This document shows, in pieces, positions 17,995 to 28,194 of a stretch of 43,514 nucleotides of DNA. Under the pieces are notes generated by a model that worked only from the letters and a program-made list of their open reading frames with translations, was not told the DNA's origin and did not search any database. The stretch is from Singulisphaera sp. GP187 (GTDB lineage: Bacteria > Planctomycetota > Phycisphaerae > Phycisphaerales > SM1A02), in contig CAMAXY010000019.1 of the NCBI GenBank assembly GCA_945862215.1, forward strand, positions 1-43,514. The letters run 5' to 3'. A program made the translations under genes and the position numbers. The stretch's first letter is position 1. Every line of letters starts with the position of its first letter.

Positions 17995-20352
17995 TCAAGG
18001 AGCAATCGGCTTAGGAATGACTTTGGTTTGTGTGGCGGGCAGCACGCGGAGGTCGAGTTTCGCTGCGCCGTCGAGTTCGAAATAGAGAACTGTCATCGTC
18101 ACATCCTTGTGCTCGGTCATTGAAAAAATTGCTTGATCAATCGTGGTTCCGTGGCGATTCCAGCGGTCGATCAAGATTTTTCCATCAAGCAAGACGCGCA
18201 CGCCGTCATCGGACTCCGTCTGGACGATCCAGTCGCCAGGTGGAGCAGAAAAGGTTGTTTTGGCAAGCAATCCAAAGTTGTCCTTGGGTGCAGTAGGGGA
18301 TTTGGGCATCAAATTGACCGAGTCTGGGCCTCCCATGCCGAAAGGAAAAGTCAGCGATTCGACATAGACGCGATACGTCTCCTTCGGCAAGTGATCGAAG
18401 ATCGCAGGATCAGGCATCGCTCCTGAAGTTGCGGGCTCGGGAAGCGAAAAAATATCAACTCGCCAATTTGCGCTGAGCAATGTTCCGCGCACGCGCTGGA
18501 CTTGATTGGGAGCTTGACCCCAAAATATTCCCAACTCATAGTTTGTCAAGTGCCCAAGAGTTTCAGTTTCAACTGAAGCAGTATATGTCGTTGGATCTAT
18601 GTCCGTTCGAATGTCGGCTGTACCTTCACTTGCTTGAAGAAACTTGATAGGTTGCGACCCCAAAAGTTTCCACCGATTCATATTCGTCGGACCAGGCTCA
18701 TAGACAGCCATTGGCGCTACAAAATCGTATGGGCCAAATTCGCCAATGACAATGGCAGTCCGTCCAGCGAGTGGGCTTCGCTTCGAGACCGGCAGGCCAT
18801 CGACAATGTCCACTGCGTTTCCAGTGCCGGGAAGAGTTTTCTCCAGAGCATTCAATTCCGTCCAGTCGGAGGGTTGTGCAAGAACTGCTGTGATTCTCCG
18901 GGTTTTTGTTGCCGTCTTCAAACCCGCACGACTGCTTTCGTCGGTATCGATATCAACACCAACATTGGTCATCGTGTTTGATTCGATGATCGTTCCAGGC
19001 GAAGCGCGAAGAAAGACTCCGATCTTTTCACCTTTGAATGTATTGCGAGTGATGACACTTCCGGTGGAATCGACTCCATTCGCCTTTGCCCAAGGGAGCT
19101 CCGCAAGTTGTGCATCTTCGTCCCACCATAATCTGATGCCAGCGGAGTTGTTGGAAAAAACATTGTCAGTAATGAGAGCATCACGACCGTGTTCAATGTT
19201 GATCGCTCCATTTTCGCCGCCGACTCCTGTGTCTCCTGTCGCGCGAAAGACGTTTCCGCGGATCTGAAGTCGCTGGGAATAACCTCCCCAAATTCCACAG
19301 ATCGCATCACGATCAAAGCGGTTGCGAAAGATTCGGTTATCGAACGAGAAAGTTGTTTCCACTCCATGCGCAGCGGCATCAGAAAAATCATTCAGCGCGA
19401 TCAGATTTCGATTACATCCTTGACCAAGATTGGAAGTCGCAGCGCCCACGCCAGTGCTTTCACCGAGCGCCTCGCGTCCTGCAAATCCGAAGAATCCATC
19501 CCCGCAGTGCGTCGCAGAATTCATCATAAATGTATTGTCTGAAGATTGCTCAAAGCAAAGAATTCCCGCAGAATCTTGGCCGCGGTTATAGATTGTGTGG
19601 CTGTATCCACGGATGCAGAAATCGAGTGAATTGCGGCAAATCGTGTTGGAGCAGCTTCTCCACAATGCGATTCCCCATCCCGAAAGAAATGAGGCGTCGC
19701 AGTTGTACACCTGTGCGTTTGAGACTCGCGACAGCACAATTCCATTCTGACCTTGCCGAACTGCGATTTCGCGAATAACAATTCCTTGCGAATCGCTCAC
19801 GGCGATCGCAGCACCATATTGTGAAACCCATTCGCCATTGTCGTTCTTCTGAGGCGAGAGCCAATCCTTGGCATTTTCTCGTTCTGTATTCGATGCAAGC
19901 CGTTGCGAAAAGTTGCGAATGAATTCCATGCCTTCGAAGAGAGCGTGGTCGCAATTCGTGGCAGAAATACCAACACGGAATCCTGTCACCGTTCCGTTTC
20001 GAATGGTGATGCGCTTGCCGTGGGCAACAATTCCAATGCCTCGGAGTTCGTCTTGGGGAGTCTTGCCATCAGCGCCGATCAAAGTCTGCCCGCCGAAATC
20101 CACGGTGATGTCGTCACCTTCAATCTGAATGACACCGTTGTTGTCTGCGTCGATCAATGGCCGAGGCGCGAGGATGAGTCTGCAAGAACTTGTGATTCGG
20201 ACGTTGTCATCTGCAACAACAATTTGGAGTACTTCCACAATTGCGGGAGCAATTTGTGGAGGATTTTGATGGGCGTTCCCAGCGGAAAAAGCGAATGCAA
20301 ATGCCGAAATATGCCAACAAAACCCAACAGCCATCAAGTGATGAAGTGACAT
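17995..20352 (-). CDS. secreted right-handed beta-helix protein with C-terminal PA14 domain
   Basis: 785 residues with a signal peptide (hydrophobic stretch 7-26). Residues about 60-480 are rungs of a parallel beta-helix as in NosD/pectate-lyase-like folds: many N-rich turns such as SSDNTFMMNSATHCGDGFFG, FDNRIFRNRFDRDAICGIW, ALITDNVFSNNSAGIRLW, VITRNTFKGEKIGVFL. Residues about 680-775 are PA14-like (PPGDWIVQTESDDGVRVLLDG, followed by KILIDRW), a carbohydrate-binding beta-barrel. Such proteins often bind or cleave polysaccharides; the catalytic residues are not identifiable by eye. The gene begins 7 bp after frr and overlaps the long reading of nrdR, so it sits inside a housekeeping operon. 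Cys and His content is not unusual. Confidence 0.85.
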   Translation of the reverse strand: MSLHHLMAVGFCWHISAFAFAFSAGNAHQNPPQIAPAIVEVLQIVVADDNVRITSSCRLILAPRPLIDADNNGVIQIEGDDITVDFGGQTLIGADGKTPQDELRGIGIVAHGKRITIRNGTVTGFRVGISATNCDHALFEGMEFIRNFSQRLASNTERENAKDWLSPQKNDNGEWVSQYGAAIAVSDSQGIVIREIAVRQGQNGIVLSRVSNAQVYNCDASFLSGWGIALWRSCSNTICRNSLDFCIRGYSHTIYNRGQDSAGILCFEQSSDNTFMMNSATHCGDGFFGFAGREALGESTGVGAATSNLGQGCNRNLIALNDFSDAAAHGVETTFSFDNRIFRNRFDRDAICGIWGGYSQRLQIRGNVFRATGDTGVGGENGAINIEHGRDALITDNVFSNNSAGIRLWWDEDAQLAELPWAKANGVDSTGSVITRNTFKGEKIGVFLRASPGTIIESNTMTNVGVDIDTDESSRAGLKTATKTRRITAVLAQPSDWTELNALEKTLPGTGNAVDIVDGLPVSKRSPLAGRTAIVIGEFGPYDFVAPMAVYEPGPTNMNRWKLLGSQPIKFLQASEGTADIRTDIDPTTYTASVETETLGHLTNYELGIFWGQAPNQVQRVRGTLLSANWRVDIFSLPEPATSGAMPDPAIFDHLPKETYRVYVESLTFPFGMGGPDSVNLMPKSPTAPKDNFGLLAKTTFSAPPGDWIVQTESDDGVRVLLDGKILIDRWNRHGTTIDQAIFSMTEHKDVTMTVLYFELDGAAKLDLRVLPATQTKVIPKPIAP

Positions 20353-21740: not shown

Positions 21741-22700
21741 ATGACGGTGTTCGCCAACCCACAACCAATGAAGCAGGGACCACACTCCAAACCAAGACAA
21801 ACGGGAGCATTTTCATGGATTTGGATCGGGCTTGCGATCTCCTTGCCCATGCACGCAATTTTGTTAGCAATCTTGTCGAGTATCAGCGTTGGCATTGGGA
21901 CATCCACTGGTAAAGGAATCTCAACGATTGAGGTTTCACTGATAGATGCCGAACCACTTCAGCCTTCGCCAGATTCCTCTTCATCTGGGACAGATGCGAC
22001 ACCAGAAGTTCGCCCTGCGGAAGATGCGGCGAATTCTGCGGATTCAAACATGTTTGGATTGCCAGCTCCTACGGGAAATGATCAGGGTGATGAGGCGGTC
22101 CTCTCTTCTGGAGCAGAGGGCATGTTCGCTTCTGGGGGCGGTGGAGGTGATGGAGGAATCGGTGATGGAACAGGTGCGACCACAACTTTCTTCGGTGTAA
22201 GCGGGCGTGGAAAGAAGATTGGATATGTCGTGGATAAGTCTGGTTCAATGGGAATTGCTGGGCGAATGGAGCAGGCGAAAATTGAGATCATCAGGAGTAT
22301 CAGCGAACTTCCCGACTATACGTCGGTCTGTATCGCACTCTTCGATGAGGACTTTCAGACCTTCGATCGTGATGATGGTTTCGTCAAATGCCGAGAGGGT
22401 GTGACTTCTAAAATTAAAAAGTGGATTCGAGATGTCGCGCAGAGCGGAGGAACAAATCCCGTGTCTGCGTTTCAGTTTTTATTCAGCAGGCGCGAACGTC
22501 CAGATGTCGTGTTTTTTATGAGTGATGGAGAAATCCCACCAGATGCGGCTGATGAGATTTTGCGACTCAATCGGCGTGGACCGAACACGGTCATTCACTG
22601 CATCGCATTTGGACAAGCCGCAGCAACTGCACCACTTCGCAGAATTGCCAGTGAAACTGGTGGAACCTTTTCGATTTCAGTTCCCAAGGGGTCGAAATGA
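21741..22700 (+). CDS. TonB/TolA-like transmembrane protein with C-terminal von Willebrand A domain
   Basis: 319 residues from ATG 21741 (ATG 21768 is also possible; neither has a clear ribosome binding site). Residues 23-52 are one membrane helix containing Ser34-x-x-x-His38, the SxxxH pattern of TonB and TolA helices that contact ExbB/ExbD or TolQ/TolR. After it come STIEVSLIDAEPLQPSP, similar to the start of the TonB periplasmic part, and a Pro/Ser/Gly-rich linker to ~150 with a GGGGGDGG run. Residues ~157-315 are a VWA domain with a full MIDAS: DKSGS (Asp165, Ser167, Ser169), the Thr in SGGTNP and the Asp in MSDGE. VWA domains bind protein partners through a metal ion. A TonB- or TolA-type C-domain is absent. 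The stop overlaps the next ATG. An ExbB and two ExbD genes follow in the operon. Confidence 0.85.
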   Translation: MTVFANPQPMKQGPHSKPRQTGAFSWIWIGLAISLPMHAILLAILSSISVGIGTSTGKGISTIEVSLIDAEPLQPSPDSSSSGTDATPEVRPAEDAANSADSNMFGLPAPTGNDQGDEAVLSSGAEGMFASGGGGGDGGIGDGTGATTTFFGVSGRGKKIGYVVDKSGSMGIAGRMEQAKIEIIRSISELPDYTSVCIALFDEDFQTFDRDDGFVKCREGVTSKIKKWIRDVAQSGGTNPVSAFQFLFSRRERPDVVFFMSDGEIPPDAADEILRLNRRGPNTVIHCIAFGQAAATAPLRRIASETGGTFSISVPKGSK

Positions 22701-23980
22701 ATCTGATTGTCAACCAGTCCAAGATGAGCATGCTGCCACTCGCACAATGGCGCAAATGCATTCTTGCGCTGATTGCGGCAATGTGCGCTGGGAGTTTCTG
22801 TGTGGCTGCAGAGCAGACTCTCTGCACGGTGAACTTTCGCGATGGAGGCGGCCACAAAGAAGGCTCTGTCTTGAAAGAGTCCGCAGATGGAATCGAAATT
22901 CAGATCGCCGGTGCAACGTTTGATACTGCAGACGCGTCGAGCACGCAGTTCATTCGGTGGGATCAAATTCGATCGATCAGCGGAGATTCTGCTGAACCAA
23001 TACGGTCACGTCGACTTGAAATCGGAGAATCACTTTGGCGAGGACGAACGCGTCTGACGCGCGGCGACTTGAGAGGCGCACGAGAATGTTTTCTTGTTGC
23101 TGCAAAGGGGATAGAACCATCTGCGTCACTCTTAAGAATGATGGCCTCTGAAGGAATTGCGCAGACTGCGTCGGTCGCAAGAGATGAATGGGCCCAATCA
23201 CTCGAAGCGGCACTCAAACTTTCAGTGCTTCGAGGGCGAATTGGAGTTCCAAAATCTTGGGTCGACGCGATCGATCCGATCGATCATGATGGCGGACTCA
23301 TTCTGTCTGTTGCACCTGTATGGATTGATGGTGATTCAGCGAAGAGTGCGCAAGGCTTCTTGGTTGCTGCAGCAGATCGCGCACGAAGCGAAAACGATAT
23401 TGCGTTGGCGCAAATTGAATCAGATGTCGCACGAATTGCTGCCGCCGATGCGGGTTTGCCTCAGCCTCCTGCGGGAAAATCTCGCGAGACCCAGAGTGCT
23501 TCTCCCGATTCACTGCCTTCGGGAAATTGGCCGCCTGCGACCAATTCCGCAAAGTCTGCTGCAAAGAATGGCGCAAAGTTTCTATCGCTTTGGGCAGATG
23601 CTGTTTCTTCTGATGCAGGCGCACGAAAAAAGAGTCGCGTCACTCTTGCTCAAATGATTCGAAGTGAAGAGGGAATGCTTCGAGTCTGGGCGATGTATGC
23701 CGAAGGTCGGAGTCTTGTGATGGAGAACGATCCAGATGAGGTGCGAAATGGAGTTGGGAAGATGTTGATGATTCCAGCCGCATATGGAATCGAAATGCCT
23801 CGCCTCGCTGAAGCAGCTGTGGCTCAATCAGCAATTGCTCTTGCTCGGATTCAAGATGGTGAATCTGCAGCAATTCTGCGTCGTATTCAAAGTGAATACC
23901 AAACTCAGTTCAGTGAAGGTGCCGAAAAAGACAATGGCAAACAAAATGAAACGCAAAGCGATAAACAAAAAGGAGATTGA
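22697..23980 (+). CDS. exported protein of unknown function, second gene of the ExbBD-VWA operon
   Basis: 427 residues; ATG overlaps the previous stop (ATGA 22697-22700). A signal peptide (hydrophobic ~21-37, ending CVAAEQ) directs it to the periplasm; a Cys in GSFCVAA is not in a good lipobox position. Residues ~42-95 look like a small beta-barrel module found in many planctomycete proteins (VNFRDGGGHKEGSVL ... FIRWDQIRSISGD). The rest is helical and TPR-like (RLTRGDLRGARECFLVAAKG), with a Pro/Ser/Lys-rich insert near 255-295 and a charged tail (EKDNGKQNETQSDKQKGD). No known family was recognised. Gene position suggests it is a periplasmic partner of the VWA-TonB-like protein. Confidence 0.75.
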   Translation: MNLIVNQSKMSMLPLAQWRKCILALIAAMCAGSFCVAAEQTLCTVNFRDGGGHKEGSVLKESADGIEIQIAGATFDTADASSTQFIRWDQIRSISGDSAEPIRSRRLEIGESLWRGRTRLTRGDLRGARECFLVAAKGIEPSASLLRMMASEGIAQTASVARDEWAQSLEAALKLSVLRGRIGVPKSWVDAIDPIDHDGGLILSVAPVWIDGDSAKSAQGFLVAAADRARSENDIALAQIESDVARIAAADAGLPQPPAGKSRETQSASPDSLPSGNWPPATNSAKSAAKNGAKFLSLWADAVSSDAGARKKSRVTLAQMIRSEEGMLRVWAMYAEGRSLVMENDPDEVRNGVGKMLMIPAAYGIEMPRLAEAAVAQSAIALARIQDGESAAILRRIQSEYQTQFSEGAEKDNGKQNETQSDKQKGD

Positions 23981-23983
23981 TCA

Positions 23984-24664
23984 GTGAGTTTTTTCAAATA
24001 CATCGAAGGTGGCGGAATCATCGGATACATCATTCTGGCACTCAGTATCGTTGGGGCGGCATTCACCATTTCAGCAATTTTACGCACACGCCGAATTCAA
24101 CTTGTTCCAGAAGAGCAGGTGAAGGAACTGAGATTGCAGGCAGATGCAAGCGATTTCCAACAGGCTTTGGAAGATTGTCGCAGTGAAGAAGGTGATACTT
24201 TTCTTGGACGCATCGCTGCAGCGGGAATTGATCGCTCCTTGCGAGGGCCACTCGGTGGACTCGAGGCGCGAGCTGCGATGGAGGATGCTGGTGAAGACGA
24301 AACAGCCCGGCTGTTTCGAGCAATCGATCCAATCGCCGTCATCGCAAGTGTTGCTCCGCTGCTTGGACTACTTGGAACCGTTCAGGGAATGATTGGTGCG
24401 TTCGAAACGGTTGCGAGTACTGCGACGAGAAGCAGTGCGTATTACGAAACGCTTGCTTCAAACATCAGCATCGCTCTGATCACCACATTTCAAGGTTTGG
24501 TCGTTGCGATTCCATGCGTGATGGTTCACTCATGGCTTCGAAATCGAATTGATCGCGCGGCATCCGAAGCAGGACGAGCGCTTGAACCACTTGCGATGTC
24601 CCTCGAGCGCATTGGAACTGCATTCACACAGGATGAACCTCGTCAAGTGAGCAACGGCGAATGA
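23984..24664 (+). CDS. ExbB/TolQ/MotA-family proton channel protein
   Basis: 226 residues, GTG 23984 with AAGGAG nine bases upstream. ExbB/TolQ proteins form a pentameric inner-membrane channel that uses proton flow to drive TonB or TolA. Three membrane helices are visible: GYIILALSIVGAAFTISAIL (~11-31), IAVIASVAPLLGLLGTVQGM (~115-138, with the conserved P-L-L-G-L-L-G-T-V-x-G-M signature) and SIALITTFQGLVVAIPCVMV (~165-188, with conserved Thr and Pro). The large cytoplasmic loop lies between helix 1 and 2. It follows the exported gene by 3 bp and overlaps the ExbD gene by 4 bp. The partners in the same operon are two ExbD proteins and a VWA protein rather than TonB or TolA. Confidence 0.93.
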   Translation: MSFFKYIEGGGIIGYIILALSIVGAAFTISAILRTRRIQLVPEEQVKELRLQADASDFQQALEDCRSEEGDTFLGRIAAAGIDRSLRGPLGGLEARAAMEDAGEDETARLFRAIDPIAVIASVAPLLGLLGTVQGMIGAFETVASTATRSSAYYETLASNISIALITTFQGLVVAIPCVMVHSWLRNRIDRAASEAGRALEPLAMSLERIGTAFTQDEPRQVSNGE

Positions 24665-25080
24665 GGATTGGTCGTCGTCAATATGGGATGGCAATCTTGG
24701 ACATGACGCCGATGATCGACGTCGTTTTTCTCCTGCTTATTTTCTTTCTGACGACGGCTCAGATGGCTCAGATGGCTTCGTCCCCCGTGACATTGCCGGA
24801 AGAGGCTGGAAACGCCGAGGAATCCTCTGGTTCAACGGGAATGGTGGTCAATATCGATTCGATGGGGGTTATCACAGTTTTGGATCAATCGATCGAACCG
24901 AGTGAGTTGATGAAGCGTGCCAAAGAAGTGATGGCCCAAGATCCTGTCGCTGTTCCTGTGATTCGCGCGGATCGCCGTTCAACAGCTGCGAGGCTGAATG
25001 AAGTCGTGGATGCACTACGAAGCGGAGGTTGTCGCGCTGTGCGAGTCGCAACCACCCAAGTGAAGGAACCGACGGAATGA
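24661..25080 (+). CDS. ExbD/TolR-family protein, copy 1
   Basis: 139 residues, ATG in the ATGA overlap with the ExbB gene. One N-terminal membrane helix carries the key Asp: LDMTPMIDVVFLLLIFFL, Asp20, equivalent to ExbD Asp25 and TolR Asp23, which takes up protons inside the ExbB ring. The periplasmic domain (VITVLDQSIEPSELMKRA ... PVAVPVIRADRRSTAARLNEVVDALRSGG) has the usual ExbD beta-alpha fold and the conserved VxIRADR-like strand. Ends in an ATGA overlap with the second ExbD gene. Confidence 0.93.
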   Translation: MRIGRRQYGMAILDMTPMIDVVFLLLIFFLTTAQMAQMASSPVTLPEEAGNAEESSGSTGMVVNIDSMGVITVLDQSIEPSELMKRAKEVMAQDPVAVPVIRADRRSTAARLNEVVDALRSGGCRAVRVATTQVKEPTE

Positions 25081-25496
25081 AGATCGGAGAAAAATCTCGA
25101 CGTGGTGCACATGGTCCGATCTCGCTCAACATGACGAGCATGATCGATGCAACATTCTTGCTGTTGGCATACTTCATTTTTACGACGGTGTCCGGCGATC
25201 AAGAGTCGCAGTTGATGGCGGATGTCTCGGCTTCTCGTGTCGGGACGGGCGCTTCTGCATTGAGTCCTCAAATTGTCGATGTCGAATCTGATTCAGGCGG
25301 TGCAGTTTTTCGGATCGGCTCACGAAATATTCGAGAGCGAAAAGATTTGGCTGCGGTATTAAAGCAATTGCCTCATGACATCGGCATCGTTGTCCGAGTG
25401 CATTCGGGACCCGATGTCGCCGCAGTTGCAGCTGCGATGCAAGCGGCGCAAGATGCTGGATTTGAGAAAGTCACCTATGTCACAGCGTCAAAGTAA
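25077..25496 (+). CDS. ExbD/TolR-family protein, copy 2
   Basis: 139 residues, ATG in the overlap with copy 1. LNMTSMIDATFLLLAYFIFTT contains the membrane helix with Asp24, so the proton-carrying residue is conserved, although the Pro of the usual T-P-M-I-D is replaced by Ser. The periplasmic domain (FRIGSRNIRERKDLAAVLKQ ... VVRVHSGPDVAAVAAAMQAA) aligns loosely with copy 1 but is clearly divergent, so the two are not a recent duplication. Two ExbD genes next to one ExbB suggest a hetero-dimeric ExbD in the channel, as both subunits of the ExbD dimer sit inside the ExbB ring. The next gene starts 20 bp before this one ends. Confidence 0.9.
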   Translation: MKIGEKSRRGAHGPISLNMTSMIDATFLLLAYFIFTTVSGDQESQLMADVSASRVGTGASALSPQIVDVESDSGGAVFRIGSRNIRERKDLAAVLKQLPHDIGIVVRVHSGPDVAAVAAAMQAAQDAGFEKVTYVTASK

Positions 25497-28194
25497 TTCA
25501 GATGGAATACGAGTTCCCCAAGGATTCCTTGGGATCATCGCCCTTACTTTCGTGATCACACTTTTGTCTTTCTCGCAAAGCGGATATGCGGCATCGCTCC
25601 CAAGTGCCCCAACCGCAGATGACACAGAGAAAGCCGATGAATCCGCTGCTTTGACTGAATGGCTGACGCAAGCTGGCCTTGATGAAATTCTTGCAGTGAT
25701 GCTTGACGAGCAAGTTCGAAAAGCGACAAGTTCCAGTCCAACAGCGATTGCTCGTTTGTCTGATACATATCTTCGACTCATCAGAGTTGCACTCGACGAA
25801 GATCGAGTCGCAAATTTGCGCGTGCGAATTGAAAAATTTCTGAGCCGCGACCGAGTTCCAGATCAATTCAAACTTCAAATCGCATTGGGTCGCGCTGATT
25901 ATCGCATGGCGCTGCGGGGCATCGAGCGTTTGCGGCAAGGACAGGCAAACAATGATGATAAAGCACGGACATCTGCATCGCTTCTCCATTCGCTTGAGTC
26001 ACTCGATCAACTTTTTGATCAATTGAAAAAGCGGATCGAAGAAATGCGCGTCCTCGCGGCGGGAGTGGATGAGCAGCAAAGGATCACATTCGCAGCTGAA
26101 ATTGATGATGATTCAGATCTTCTGATCGAGGCAAAGTTTCTTCGGGCATGGTGTCGATATTGGCTTCTGTGGATCGATCGGCCGCTGTCAACTGCGAAGC
26201 AAAATCCGGCATCGCCTTGGCTGCGTCAGGCGTCCGAATTGGTCGCTGCATGGTCTGACCTTCTTGAAACTGGGGAGTCTTTGTCAGAACCAAGTGATTG
26301 TTCAATCGATCTTCTTTCAGAGCAGTATTACGCTCAGTCCATTCTTGGCATGGCCTTGACAAAAGCGTTGCTGAGCGATCTTGCAGTTGCGGATGGGTGG
26401 TTTGCGCTTCTGAAACAGAGTGGGGTCTGGGAAGGACTTTCTGATTCATCTGACTGGTATCTCCAAGCACTTGTTGATACAGGTTCGTATGAACGTGCGC
26501 GAACTTTTCTTGCGAAGTCATCCGAGACTTTGAATTGTTCATCTGTGGTCGGTGCGGCGGTGCGAGCCGTGGAAGAATCTTCGAACAACCCAAACGCAAT
26601 TGAGTTTGCAAAATCCGCCGTTGCAGTCGCTGCGATCCAGGGTGACTTCGGATCTGTTCGACGGATCACTCGTCGAGTTCCTACACTTGCGCAAGGAGAT
26701 GGATTTTCTGCTTGTTTGGCTCGTGGAATCGATTTGTATGACCAAGGTCGTGCGGCGACTCAGCCCAAACTGAAGAAATCATTTTTGGAATCAGCCGTTC
26801 GTGAACTTTCGCTCGCCGTGCAATCTGCTCCAAAGGAACGGCAGACTGCGGCGGCTGTTCAAGAACTTCTCGCATGGGCGCTGCTCGGTTCAGGACAACC
26901 TTGTGAAGCAGCGGAATCATTTGTGCTTGCATCGAATCAACTCGCAGGAAATCGTGCGGATGAATCGCTTTGGATGGCTGTGGAAAGCTTAACGAAGGGC
27001 GGCTGTCCTGATGCGAAAAAAAATAAGGACTCTCGCGGATTCGTAGTTGCGGGCGAGTATCTCGAACGATTCGAATCAGGAAATCACGCGAGAAGTGCGG
27101 CGGCAATTTTGAGCCAAGCGCCTGGAGCGGAGCATGACGATGTCTTGGTCGAACGTCTGATCCGTGATACGCAGCGAGAAGGAGAATCAAGCCCATTACG
27201 CGAATCCGCGGCATCACTTCTGTATCGCCGATTTCGAGCCGCGCAAGGATCGGATCGAGCAAAAGAAGCAATTCGCTTATTAAATGTCCCCCGTTTGTCC
27301 TTCACTTCTTGGCCTGCAAATTCGTTGGACATCGTTGTTCGCCAACAACTGGAGGCTGCACTCGATTCTACGGTTGCACAGATTGATGACGCGAAGAAAC
27401 TTTTGCAACTGGTCGAAAAGAAATATCCAGTCGGCGAGGAACCGATGGAGTTTCGATCGGAACTTGCAGTTCGAAGACTTGCCCTTGCGCAAGCAACGCA
27501 GAATTTTGAAATGTTGACGGAAGCAATCGCAGCCATTCGGAAAATATCTGATCTGCAATGGCGCCCAATTGCAGAAGGGATTTTTATTCGAGCAGCAGAG
27601 TCAATGATTCTGCAAAGAATTCTTTCTCCACAGCAAACGATTGATTGCCAATACTCATTGGTTGTCGCACGAAGATTCATGGTGGATACAGCAAGAAAAT
27701 CTGCTGATTCTCAGCGATCTGATGCGGCGAACATACAGCTTGGCCTTGCGTTGTTGAACGCTTCCCGCACGCTTCGTGCAAATGCAACTGCGGGAATCGC
27801 ACCTCCGATTGGTTTGGATGCGCAAACGATGTCGAAGGATGCGCTTTCAATTGCAAAGGAGATTCTCGCAAATCGACCTGATGATGCACAAGCATTTGCA
27901 CTCATGGCCGATGCAGGAATTGCGTCTGGTGATTTTAATGTGGCATTTGAGGCGCTTTCGCGATTGGTCGGCGCACTTCCATCGCGGTCAGACGCATGGT
28001 TCGAGCGGAAAGCAGATCTGTGCGAACTGATGGTCGCATCGAAGCCTGATGAAGTTCGCAAAATTTTGACGCAGCATGTCGTCCTCATTCCAGACTGGGG
28101 ACCAGGACTTGGTGGCGCACGGTTGAAAGCATTGGCAGATCGTTTGGGAGTTGTATCGCAAAAAATTCCTGTGGAAGGCAAAGAGAAAAAATGA
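25477..28194 (+). CDS. large exported TPR-like helical protein
   Basis: 905 residues with ATG 25477, chosen because it gives a signal peptide directly (hydrophobic GFLGIIALTFVITLLSF, cleavage near SGYAA-S) and overlaps the ExbD2 gene by 20 bp. Longer readings from 25375 run through ExbD2 in another frame and were rejected. The mature part is nearly all alpha-helical, with weakly conserved 34-residue-like units (for example AREL-type helices at SLAVQSAPKERQTAAAVQELLAWALLG, QPCEAAESFVLA). No catalytic motif was found. TPR proteins serve as scaffolds; the operon suggests it is a periplasmic scaffold of the ExbBD-driven system. Stop overlaps the next start (ATGA 28191-28194). Confidence 0.8.
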   Translation: MSQRQSNSDGIRVPQGFLGIIALTFVITLLSFSQSGYAASLPSAPTADDTEKADESAALTEWLTQAGLDEILAVMLDEQVRKATSSSPTAIARLSDTYLRLIRVALDEDRVANLRVRIEKFLSRDRVPDQFKLQIALGRADYRMALRGIERLRQGQANNDDKARTSASLLHSLESLDQLFDQLKKRIEEMRVLAAGVDEQQRITFAAEIDDDSDLLIEAKFLRAWCRYWLLWIDRPLSTAKQNPASPWLRQASELVAAWSDLLETGESLSEPSDCSIDLLSEQYYAQSILGMALTKALLSDLAVADGWFALLKQSGVWEGLSDSSDWYLQALVDTGSYERARTFLAKSSETLNCSSVVGAAVRAVEESSNNPNAIEFAKSAVAVAAIQGDFGSVRRITRRVPTLAQGDGFSACLARGIDLYDQGRAATQPKLKKSFLESAVRELSLAVQSAPKERQTAAAVQELLAWALLGSGQPCEAAESFVLASNQLAGNRADESLWMAVESLTKGGCPDAKKNKDSRGFVVAGEYLERFESGNHARSAAAILSQAPGAEHDDVLVERLIRDTQREGESSPLRESAASLLYRRFRAAQGSDRAKEAIRLLNVPRLSFTSWPANSLDIVVRQQLEAALDSTVAQIDDAKKLLQLVEKKYPVGEEPMEFRSELAVRRLALAQATQNFEMLTEAIAAIRKISDLQWRPIAEGIFIRAAESMILQRILSPQQTIDCQYSLVVARRFMVDTARKSADSQRSDAANIQLGLALLNASRTLRANATAGIAPPIGLDAQTMSKDALSIAKEILANRPDDAQAFALMADAGIASGDFNVAFEALSRLVGALPSRSDAWFERKADLCELMVASKPDEVRKILTQHVVLIPDWGPGLGGARLKALADRLGVVSQKIPVEGKEKK

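Follow-up and report, generated by a model that had tools for sequence, protein, structure and literature searches.

A VWA-domain protein with a TonB/TolA-like membrane helix, encoded at the head of an ExbB/ExbD operon, is probably a force-transducing arm of a published vWA family

Of the force arms of the envelope, TonB and TolA are the two that have been studied well, and they are framed as such by Williams-Jones et al. 2025 (PMC12204202, doi 10.1093/molbev/msaf138), who described vWA force transducers in Planctomycetes among others. According to the parts of that paper used here, the proteins of this family carry an SHLS helix, a motor box (we took the term from there), a linker of ~100 residues, and a vWA tip, and are encoded close to a tolQ-like gene, two different tolR-like genes, and a TPR gene. 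In the published AF3 model, the His of the helix sits at the same site that TonB and TolA use. The MIDAS is not named in the main text (0 occurrences), and P2, the second protein of the operon studied here, is absent from the parts examined. A 2026 review (PMC12905483) defines the SHLS spacing as Ser-x3-His-x6-Leu-x3-Ser and cites the 2025 paper, the terms “vWA” and “von Willebrand” being absent from the review’s main text. In the literature searched, which was without bioRxiv and most subscription journals, we recognized no other paper on the vWA arm family. The family has been in print since 2025, and the transducer idea is not new.

Here, we analysed a stretch of 43,514 nucleotides (hereafter, the window) from a draft genome of 2.79 Mb, 93.5% complete. 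A sequence-only reading of this DNA had proposed that the first gene of an ExbBD operon encodes an energy transducer built like a TonB/TolA arm. The gene order from the arm onward is VWA-P2-ExbB-ExbD-ExbD-TPR (P6 is the TPR protein), and the arm gene does come first. Both the protein and the operon present the features of the published family: the former has the Ser-x3-His helix, the motor box, the linker, and the vWA tip, and the latter has a tolQ-like gene, two tolR-like genes, and a TPR gene, the TPR match lying below the Pfam cut-off. In the parts of PMC12204202 used here, the arm gene often follows the TPR and motor genes, whereas in the window it opens the operon. We consider the transducer reading well supported, and we assign a probability of roughly 0.78 to the gene encoding an inner-membrane force-transducing arm of this family, with a motor-docked helix and a metal-gripping VWA tip. 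The coordinates of the features are reported in Table 1.

Table 1. Features of the arm gene and its operon (positions refer to the window).
Feature	Position	Strand	Basis or remark
VWA arm gene, 319 aa + stop	21741..22700	+	translation begins MTVFANPQ
Transmembrane helix, residues 23-47	21807..21881	+	AlphaFold2 model, block pLDDT 84, 97, 92
SxxxH motif, Ser34 to His38	21840..21854	+	in predicted TM helix
Motor-box-like strand STIEVSLIDAEPLQPSP, residues 61-77	21921..21971	+	pattern kept among relatives
Disordered Gly/Ser-rich linker, residues 48-146	21882..22178	+	pLDDT low over most
VWA domain, residues 147-313	22179..22679	+	Pfam; AlphaFold2 model; Foldseek
MIDAS DxSxS, Asp165-Ser167-Ser169	22233..22247	+	
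MIDAS Thr238, within SGGTNP	22452..22454	+	
MIDAS Asp262, within MSDGE	22524..22526	+	
P2, probably exported, small beta barrel + helical repeats	22697..23980	+	model, pLDDT 89.6
ExbB/TolQ-type motor subunit	23984..24664	+	PF01618, 92.4 bits
First ExbD/TolR	24661..25080	+	PF02472, 79.9 bits
Second, distinct ExbD/TolR	25077..25496	+	PF02472, 44.8 bits
P6, large, probably exported, TPR-like; start approximate	25480..28194	+	TPR matches below curated Pfam cut-off

The residue numbers given by the sequence-only reading (Ser34, His38, STIEVSLIDAEPLQPSP, Asp165/Ser167/Ser169, Thr238, and Asp262) were all recovered in the translation, and the anatomy that it had drawn from them held up. The AlphaFold2 model of the arm presents a single N-terminal helix, which carries Ser34-x3-His38, and a confident alpha/beta domain at residues 147-313; between them, from residue ~48 to about 146, it gives no confident structure, in agreement with the flexible Gly/Ser linker that had been claimed. 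The TonB-like stretch said to follow the helix lies at residues 61-77, with an alternating pattern conserved in relatives, and this segment was not modelled as a strand when the arm was folded alone. The SHLS spacing is complete in the window arm (S34, H38, L45, and S49). At the C-terminal side, Pfam matched residues 163-315 with PF13768 (33.3 bits, cut-off 27) and PF00092 (29.7 bits, cut-off 23.8), and found no TonB_C or TolA C-terminal domain in a search up to E 1. The MIDAS of this VWA domain is complete, and membership in the TonB family was rejected because the search found no TonB_C. Searched with Foldseek, the VWA model matched the VWA domains of CLCA1, BatB, and ITIH. When the single protein was searched against PDB sequences, two matches came back, mostly over the linker and both with E > 0.05; a profile search of the PDB reached the VWA domains of ITIH, CLCA1, alpha2-delta, and others.

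Then, we examined the motor subunits. Among 60 ExbB compared, Ser21 of TM1 is kept in 59 and both T132 and T168 in 58, and no conserved TM1 Trp was found in this ExbB family; the review PMC12905483, in the parts used here, names a TM1 Trp beside the TM1 Ser, and counts the conserved Ser, in TonB-ExbB and TolA-TolQ, among the residues of the network that surrounds Ser/His. The TM Asp is fixed in both ExbD (Asp20 in 54/54 for the first, Asp24 in 53/53 for the second). Judging by motif context rather than alignment, this Asp and the ExbB residues T132/T168 probably correspond to Asp25 of ExbD and Thr148/Thr181 of ExbB, which the same review names in E. coli. These data bear on a different way in which the arm could engage the motor. 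As described in the parts of PMC12204202 used here, a second vWA family has a trans-pore helix and, like the window arm, a vWA protein beside TolQ; given the same fold and the neighbouring TolQ/ExbB, the arm helix could insert in the ExbB pentamer as a substitute for TolR. However, TolR and SHLS are missing from that family and its helix has an Asp, and the window arm is the opposite on each count, with two adjoining ExbD genes with their fixed TM Asp, the SxxxH motif, and no Asp in residues 23-47. The trans-pore identity was rejected, and the TolR-substitute reading, already disfavoured by the sequences, appears extremely improbable.

To follow the arm among relatives, we used two sets that share many genomes, and whose counts must therefore not be added. 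The titled set includes the best 80 of 558 confirmed relatives, and the first set includes 61 VWA frames from 60 stretches around VWA matches of relatives. The titles of the best 80 of 558 are mostly Planctomycetota or Phycisphaerales/Phycisphaerae, the closest being “uncultured bacterium” and “Singulisphaera sp.” bins; two titles, Chitinophaga and Chloroflexi, stand apart and may be mislabelled. The window itself is probably from a planctomycete on the Phycisphaerae side. In these best 80 of 558, Ser34 is kept in 79, His38 in 77, and both in 76, the exceptions being Asn at 38 in L125, L159, and L161, and Ala at 34 in L179. Leu45 is kept in 59/80 and Ser49 in 4/80 of the same best 80. The MIDAS DxSxS and Thr238 are present in 80/80 each of the best 80 of 558, as is Asp262, although the scan pattern itself demanded this last residue. 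The motor box of the best 80 of 558 is hydrophobic at positions 63 (71/80), 65 (71/80), 67 (70/80), and 68 (76/80), acidic at 64 (69/80), and has Leu at 73 in 56/80.

The first set gave a similar picture: out of 61 frames, Ser34 is found in 56, His38 in 56, DxSxS in 61, Thr238 in 58 (the three exceptions are all Ser), and Asp262 in 61; the motif is masked by Ns in L088, and L089, L049, and L041 are without SxxxH. In an alignment of the window with 35 chosen frames of this set (A1; 36 rows, 30% mean column identity), 14 columns are invariant: S34, H38, F151, G152, G157, D165, S167, S169, M170, G236, T238, D255, D262, and G308. Seven of the 14 are residues that the sequence-only reading had named (S34, H38, D165, S167, S169, T238, and D262). 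This invariance is conditional because the chosen rows omit known exceptions: among others, A1 leaves out L075 (SxxxN), L041, L049, L088, L089, and the divergent L042-L047 frames, of which three have Ser for Thr238 and one has Ala for Ser34. The rows of A1 are mostly operon loci, with L053 having no adjoining ExbBD and L034 and L055 only ExbB before the contig end. In a second alignment, which included the exceptions (A3; 51 rows, window and titled set), the MIDAS is invariant, and S34 and H38 are conserved at 90% or more. Thus, both alignments and both sets indicate that the Ser/His pair and the MIDAS are kept together. A chance occurrence of SxxxH was rejected: the motif is present in 1/162 other TM-like segments, taken from open frames of at least 150 codons in the titled loci (some of which are perhaps not genes), versus 76/80 arms of the best 80 of 558.

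SxxxN arms were found in L125, L159, L161, and also in L075. In L125 and L159, for which the motor is readable, seven ExbB positions are unique to the pair; one of them, position 31, is near the end of TM1 and is Leu in both and His/Gln/Ala/Asn elsewhere. L159 is also the sole one of the 60 ExbB that has lost the TM1 Ser. With just two operons, this proves nothing about ExbB changes accompanying the His-to-Asn replacement.

We then evaluated the linkage of the arm to the motor genes. VWA, ExbB, and ExbD occur together in 49/60 fetched stretches and in 54/80 titled loci (best 80 of 558). The sequence-only reading had staked its proposal on the Ser/His pair being retained beside ExbBD, and this was the case: the 54 loci with downstream ExbB and ExbD, among the best 80 of 558, include 52 SxxxH and 2 SxxxN. 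As for the other loci of these best 80, six have only ExbB with < 3.5 kb left (5 SxxxH, 1 AxxxH), 13 have no ExbBD with < 3.5 kb left (12 SxxxH, 1 SxxxN), and seven, all SxxxH, have no ExbBD despite at least 3.5 kb downstream. In the first set, ExbB and ExbD accompany 50 frames, 49 with SxxxH and one, L088, masked by N. ExbB only was found, at the threshold used, in L034 and L055 (SxxxH) and in L045 (AxxxH), and too little room was left downstream in L032 (SxxxH) and L075 (SxxxN). With room but no ExbBD, L053, L082, and L086 have the motif, and L041, L049, and L089 do not.

As controls, 20 weaker VWA matches from relatives were chosen before the motifs were inspected. SxxxH is present in 5/5 controls with co-directional ExbB and ExbD and absent from the best TM-like segment in 14/15 without ExbBD; the one exception, L198, has 1.4 kb of contig left, and DxSxS was not found in it. 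For seven of these 14, the scanned stretch contains no TM-like segment, which leaves seven clean membrane-anchored controls; two of the motif-less controls have a weak ExbB-like frame on the opposite strand. These counts also bear on the similarity with the BatA/BatB aerotolerance proteins, which have the bacterial VWA fold in common with the arm (BatB of Bacteroides is at Foldseek rank 14). On this basis, the protein could be a periplasmic chaperone-like factor, in which SxxxH would serve helix packing and have nothing to do with the motor. We consider this very unlikely: the motif is rare in the background segments and absent in nearly all VWA relatives without ExbBD, as counted above, and no MoxR-type ATPase was matched by Pfam among the other five operon proteins. 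To our knowledge, the BatA/BatB proteins are not encoded with ExbBD.

Outside the order, 20 stretches were picked before motif inspection, 14 as full-length matches to A1, which already favour a similar helix, and six as domain-only matches. The full-length picks include 13 SxxxH and one TxxxH, with DxSxS and Asp262 in 14/14 and Thr238 in 13/14; ExbB and ExbD are adjacent in six, and the eight without them have SxxxH in seven and TxxxH in one. These arms (L247-L249 and L251-L255, with TxxxH in L248) have no ExbB within the fetched stretch. The six domain-only picks have no SxxxH. In a sample of the phylum, 169/199 genomes match the A1 profile at 1e-12, many over the VWA part only. On account of the locus, control, and outside-order counts, SxxxH marks the arm subfamily, which is usually, but not always, beside its motor. 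In G043, the arm has no adjoining ExbBD and is directly followed by a frame joining P2-like and TPR parts; another contig of this genome holds a window-type ExbB-ExbD-ExbD set (227 bits with the window-family ExbB model), and the 3.3 kb read on that contig gave no VWA match. In each of G078 and G086, two sets of ExbB plus two ExbD lie elsewhere, with similar scores (144-160 bits).

The other operon proteins were less recognizable. P2 matched no Pfam family up to E 1, and its model consists of an N-terminal helix (15-34), strands (42-95), and helices (101-425). Foldseek found nothing for it at E 0.001 or better; TPR-type Rap proteins matched weakly, as did Hfq to the small barrel. P6 recurs as the final operon gene among relatives. 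In 8/80 of the titled loci (best 80 of 558), three of which reach the contig end, the P2 and TPR parts share one reading frame, which points to contact between the two proteins. On the other side of the arm gene, positions 17995-20352 of the minus strand encode a probably exported repeat protein of 785 aa, by eye similar to a right-handed beta helix, that adjoins the operon.

P2 and P6 were also found in 46 of the 54 loci with VWA, ExbB, and ExbD (among the best 80 of 558). This association, the docking motif, and the operon would equally fit a passive plug or scaffold, docked through SxxxH, that regulates the channel or holds P2/TPR and carries no force. The conserved motor-box strand, the long disordered linker, and the globular tip resemble instead the force arms TonB and TolA, and we judge a purely passive role to be unlikely.

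For the favoured reading, that of a force-transducing arm, we infer the following mechanism. With Ser34/His38 as contacts, the arm helix would dock on TM1 of the pentamer that the operon’s ExbB forms, and the strand after the helix (IEVSLID) would pair with one of the two ExbD, at its periplasmic domain. Proton flow through ExbB/ExbD would then pull or release the arm, with the disordered linker of ~100 residues spanning the periplasm, and the VWA tip, by way of a metal ion bound at the MIDAS, would grip a partner. Most likely, this would be either the P2/TPR pair or a component of the outer membrane that the pair holds.

The source genome has five ExbB-type loci. One of them, in C13, belongs to a Ton system, and a Plug domain is encoded about 5 kb further along. 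C26 (L099:4262-6754) encodes a second VWA arm, which has SAVVH and precedes ExbB, ExbD, and a large protein; the MIDAS of this arm appears degenerate in the alignment, where Ser replaces the Thr and Ala the last Asp, and the arm may serve the same cell as a sister that does not depend on metal. C51 (L101:690-6409) holds an unusual motor-like set, in which a weak MotA/ExbB-type protein is preceded by a protein of ~1031 aa and followed by two smaller ones (277 and 323 aa), by eye with one N-terminal helix each. In C42 (L100:3765-6113), an ExbB-type gene is directly followed by a 550 aa protein with, by eye, FHA and phosphatase-like parts, and no ExbD match was found within the 3.3 kb scanned. 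Lastly, C10 (L102:2424-3773) encodes a TonB-like protein that is long and rich in Pro; it has an A-x3-H helix, its TonB_C match (19.9 bits) stays under the cut-off, and by eye the 5 kb stretch contains no motor genes.

TolB_N was found neither in the source genome (0/1) nor in 101 genomes of the order (0/101, 96 of good quality), the search being positive in the controls E. coli, Caulobacter, and Bacteroides. The source genome has two OmpA-type domains. Because TolB_N is absent from these genomes and VWA, ExbB, and ExbD recur together as counted above, it is conceivable that, in the window’s order, VWA-P2-ExbB-ExbD-ExbD-TPR does the job of Tol-Pal. In this tentative and rather doubtful scenario, the protonmotive force would drive outer-membrane constriction, and a metal-switched VWA grip on P2/TPR would replace TolA-TolB-Pal.

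To the published description of the family, this analysis adds the conservation of the MIDAS, the probably exported partner P2, the SxxxH arms apart from ExbBD, and the absence of TolB_N. With SxxxH and MIDAS conserved together, and with an order that gave no TolB_N match, the question becomes testable genetically in a cultivable planctomycete. If the reading is true, this would be a third force arm, with an adhesion-type and probably metal-dependent tip, and ExbB/ExbD would be a general engine with exchangeable grips. The source genome’s own TonB is encoded elsewhere and has A-x3-H, whereas the window arm has SxxxH. Compared with the known ExbB-ExbD-TonB and TolQ-TolR-TolA systems, the arm of the window has in common the SxxxH helix, the motor-box-like strand, the disordered linker, and the ExbB/ExbD motor, and differs at its end, where TonB and TolA have their own C-terminal domains and the window arm has a VWA tip.
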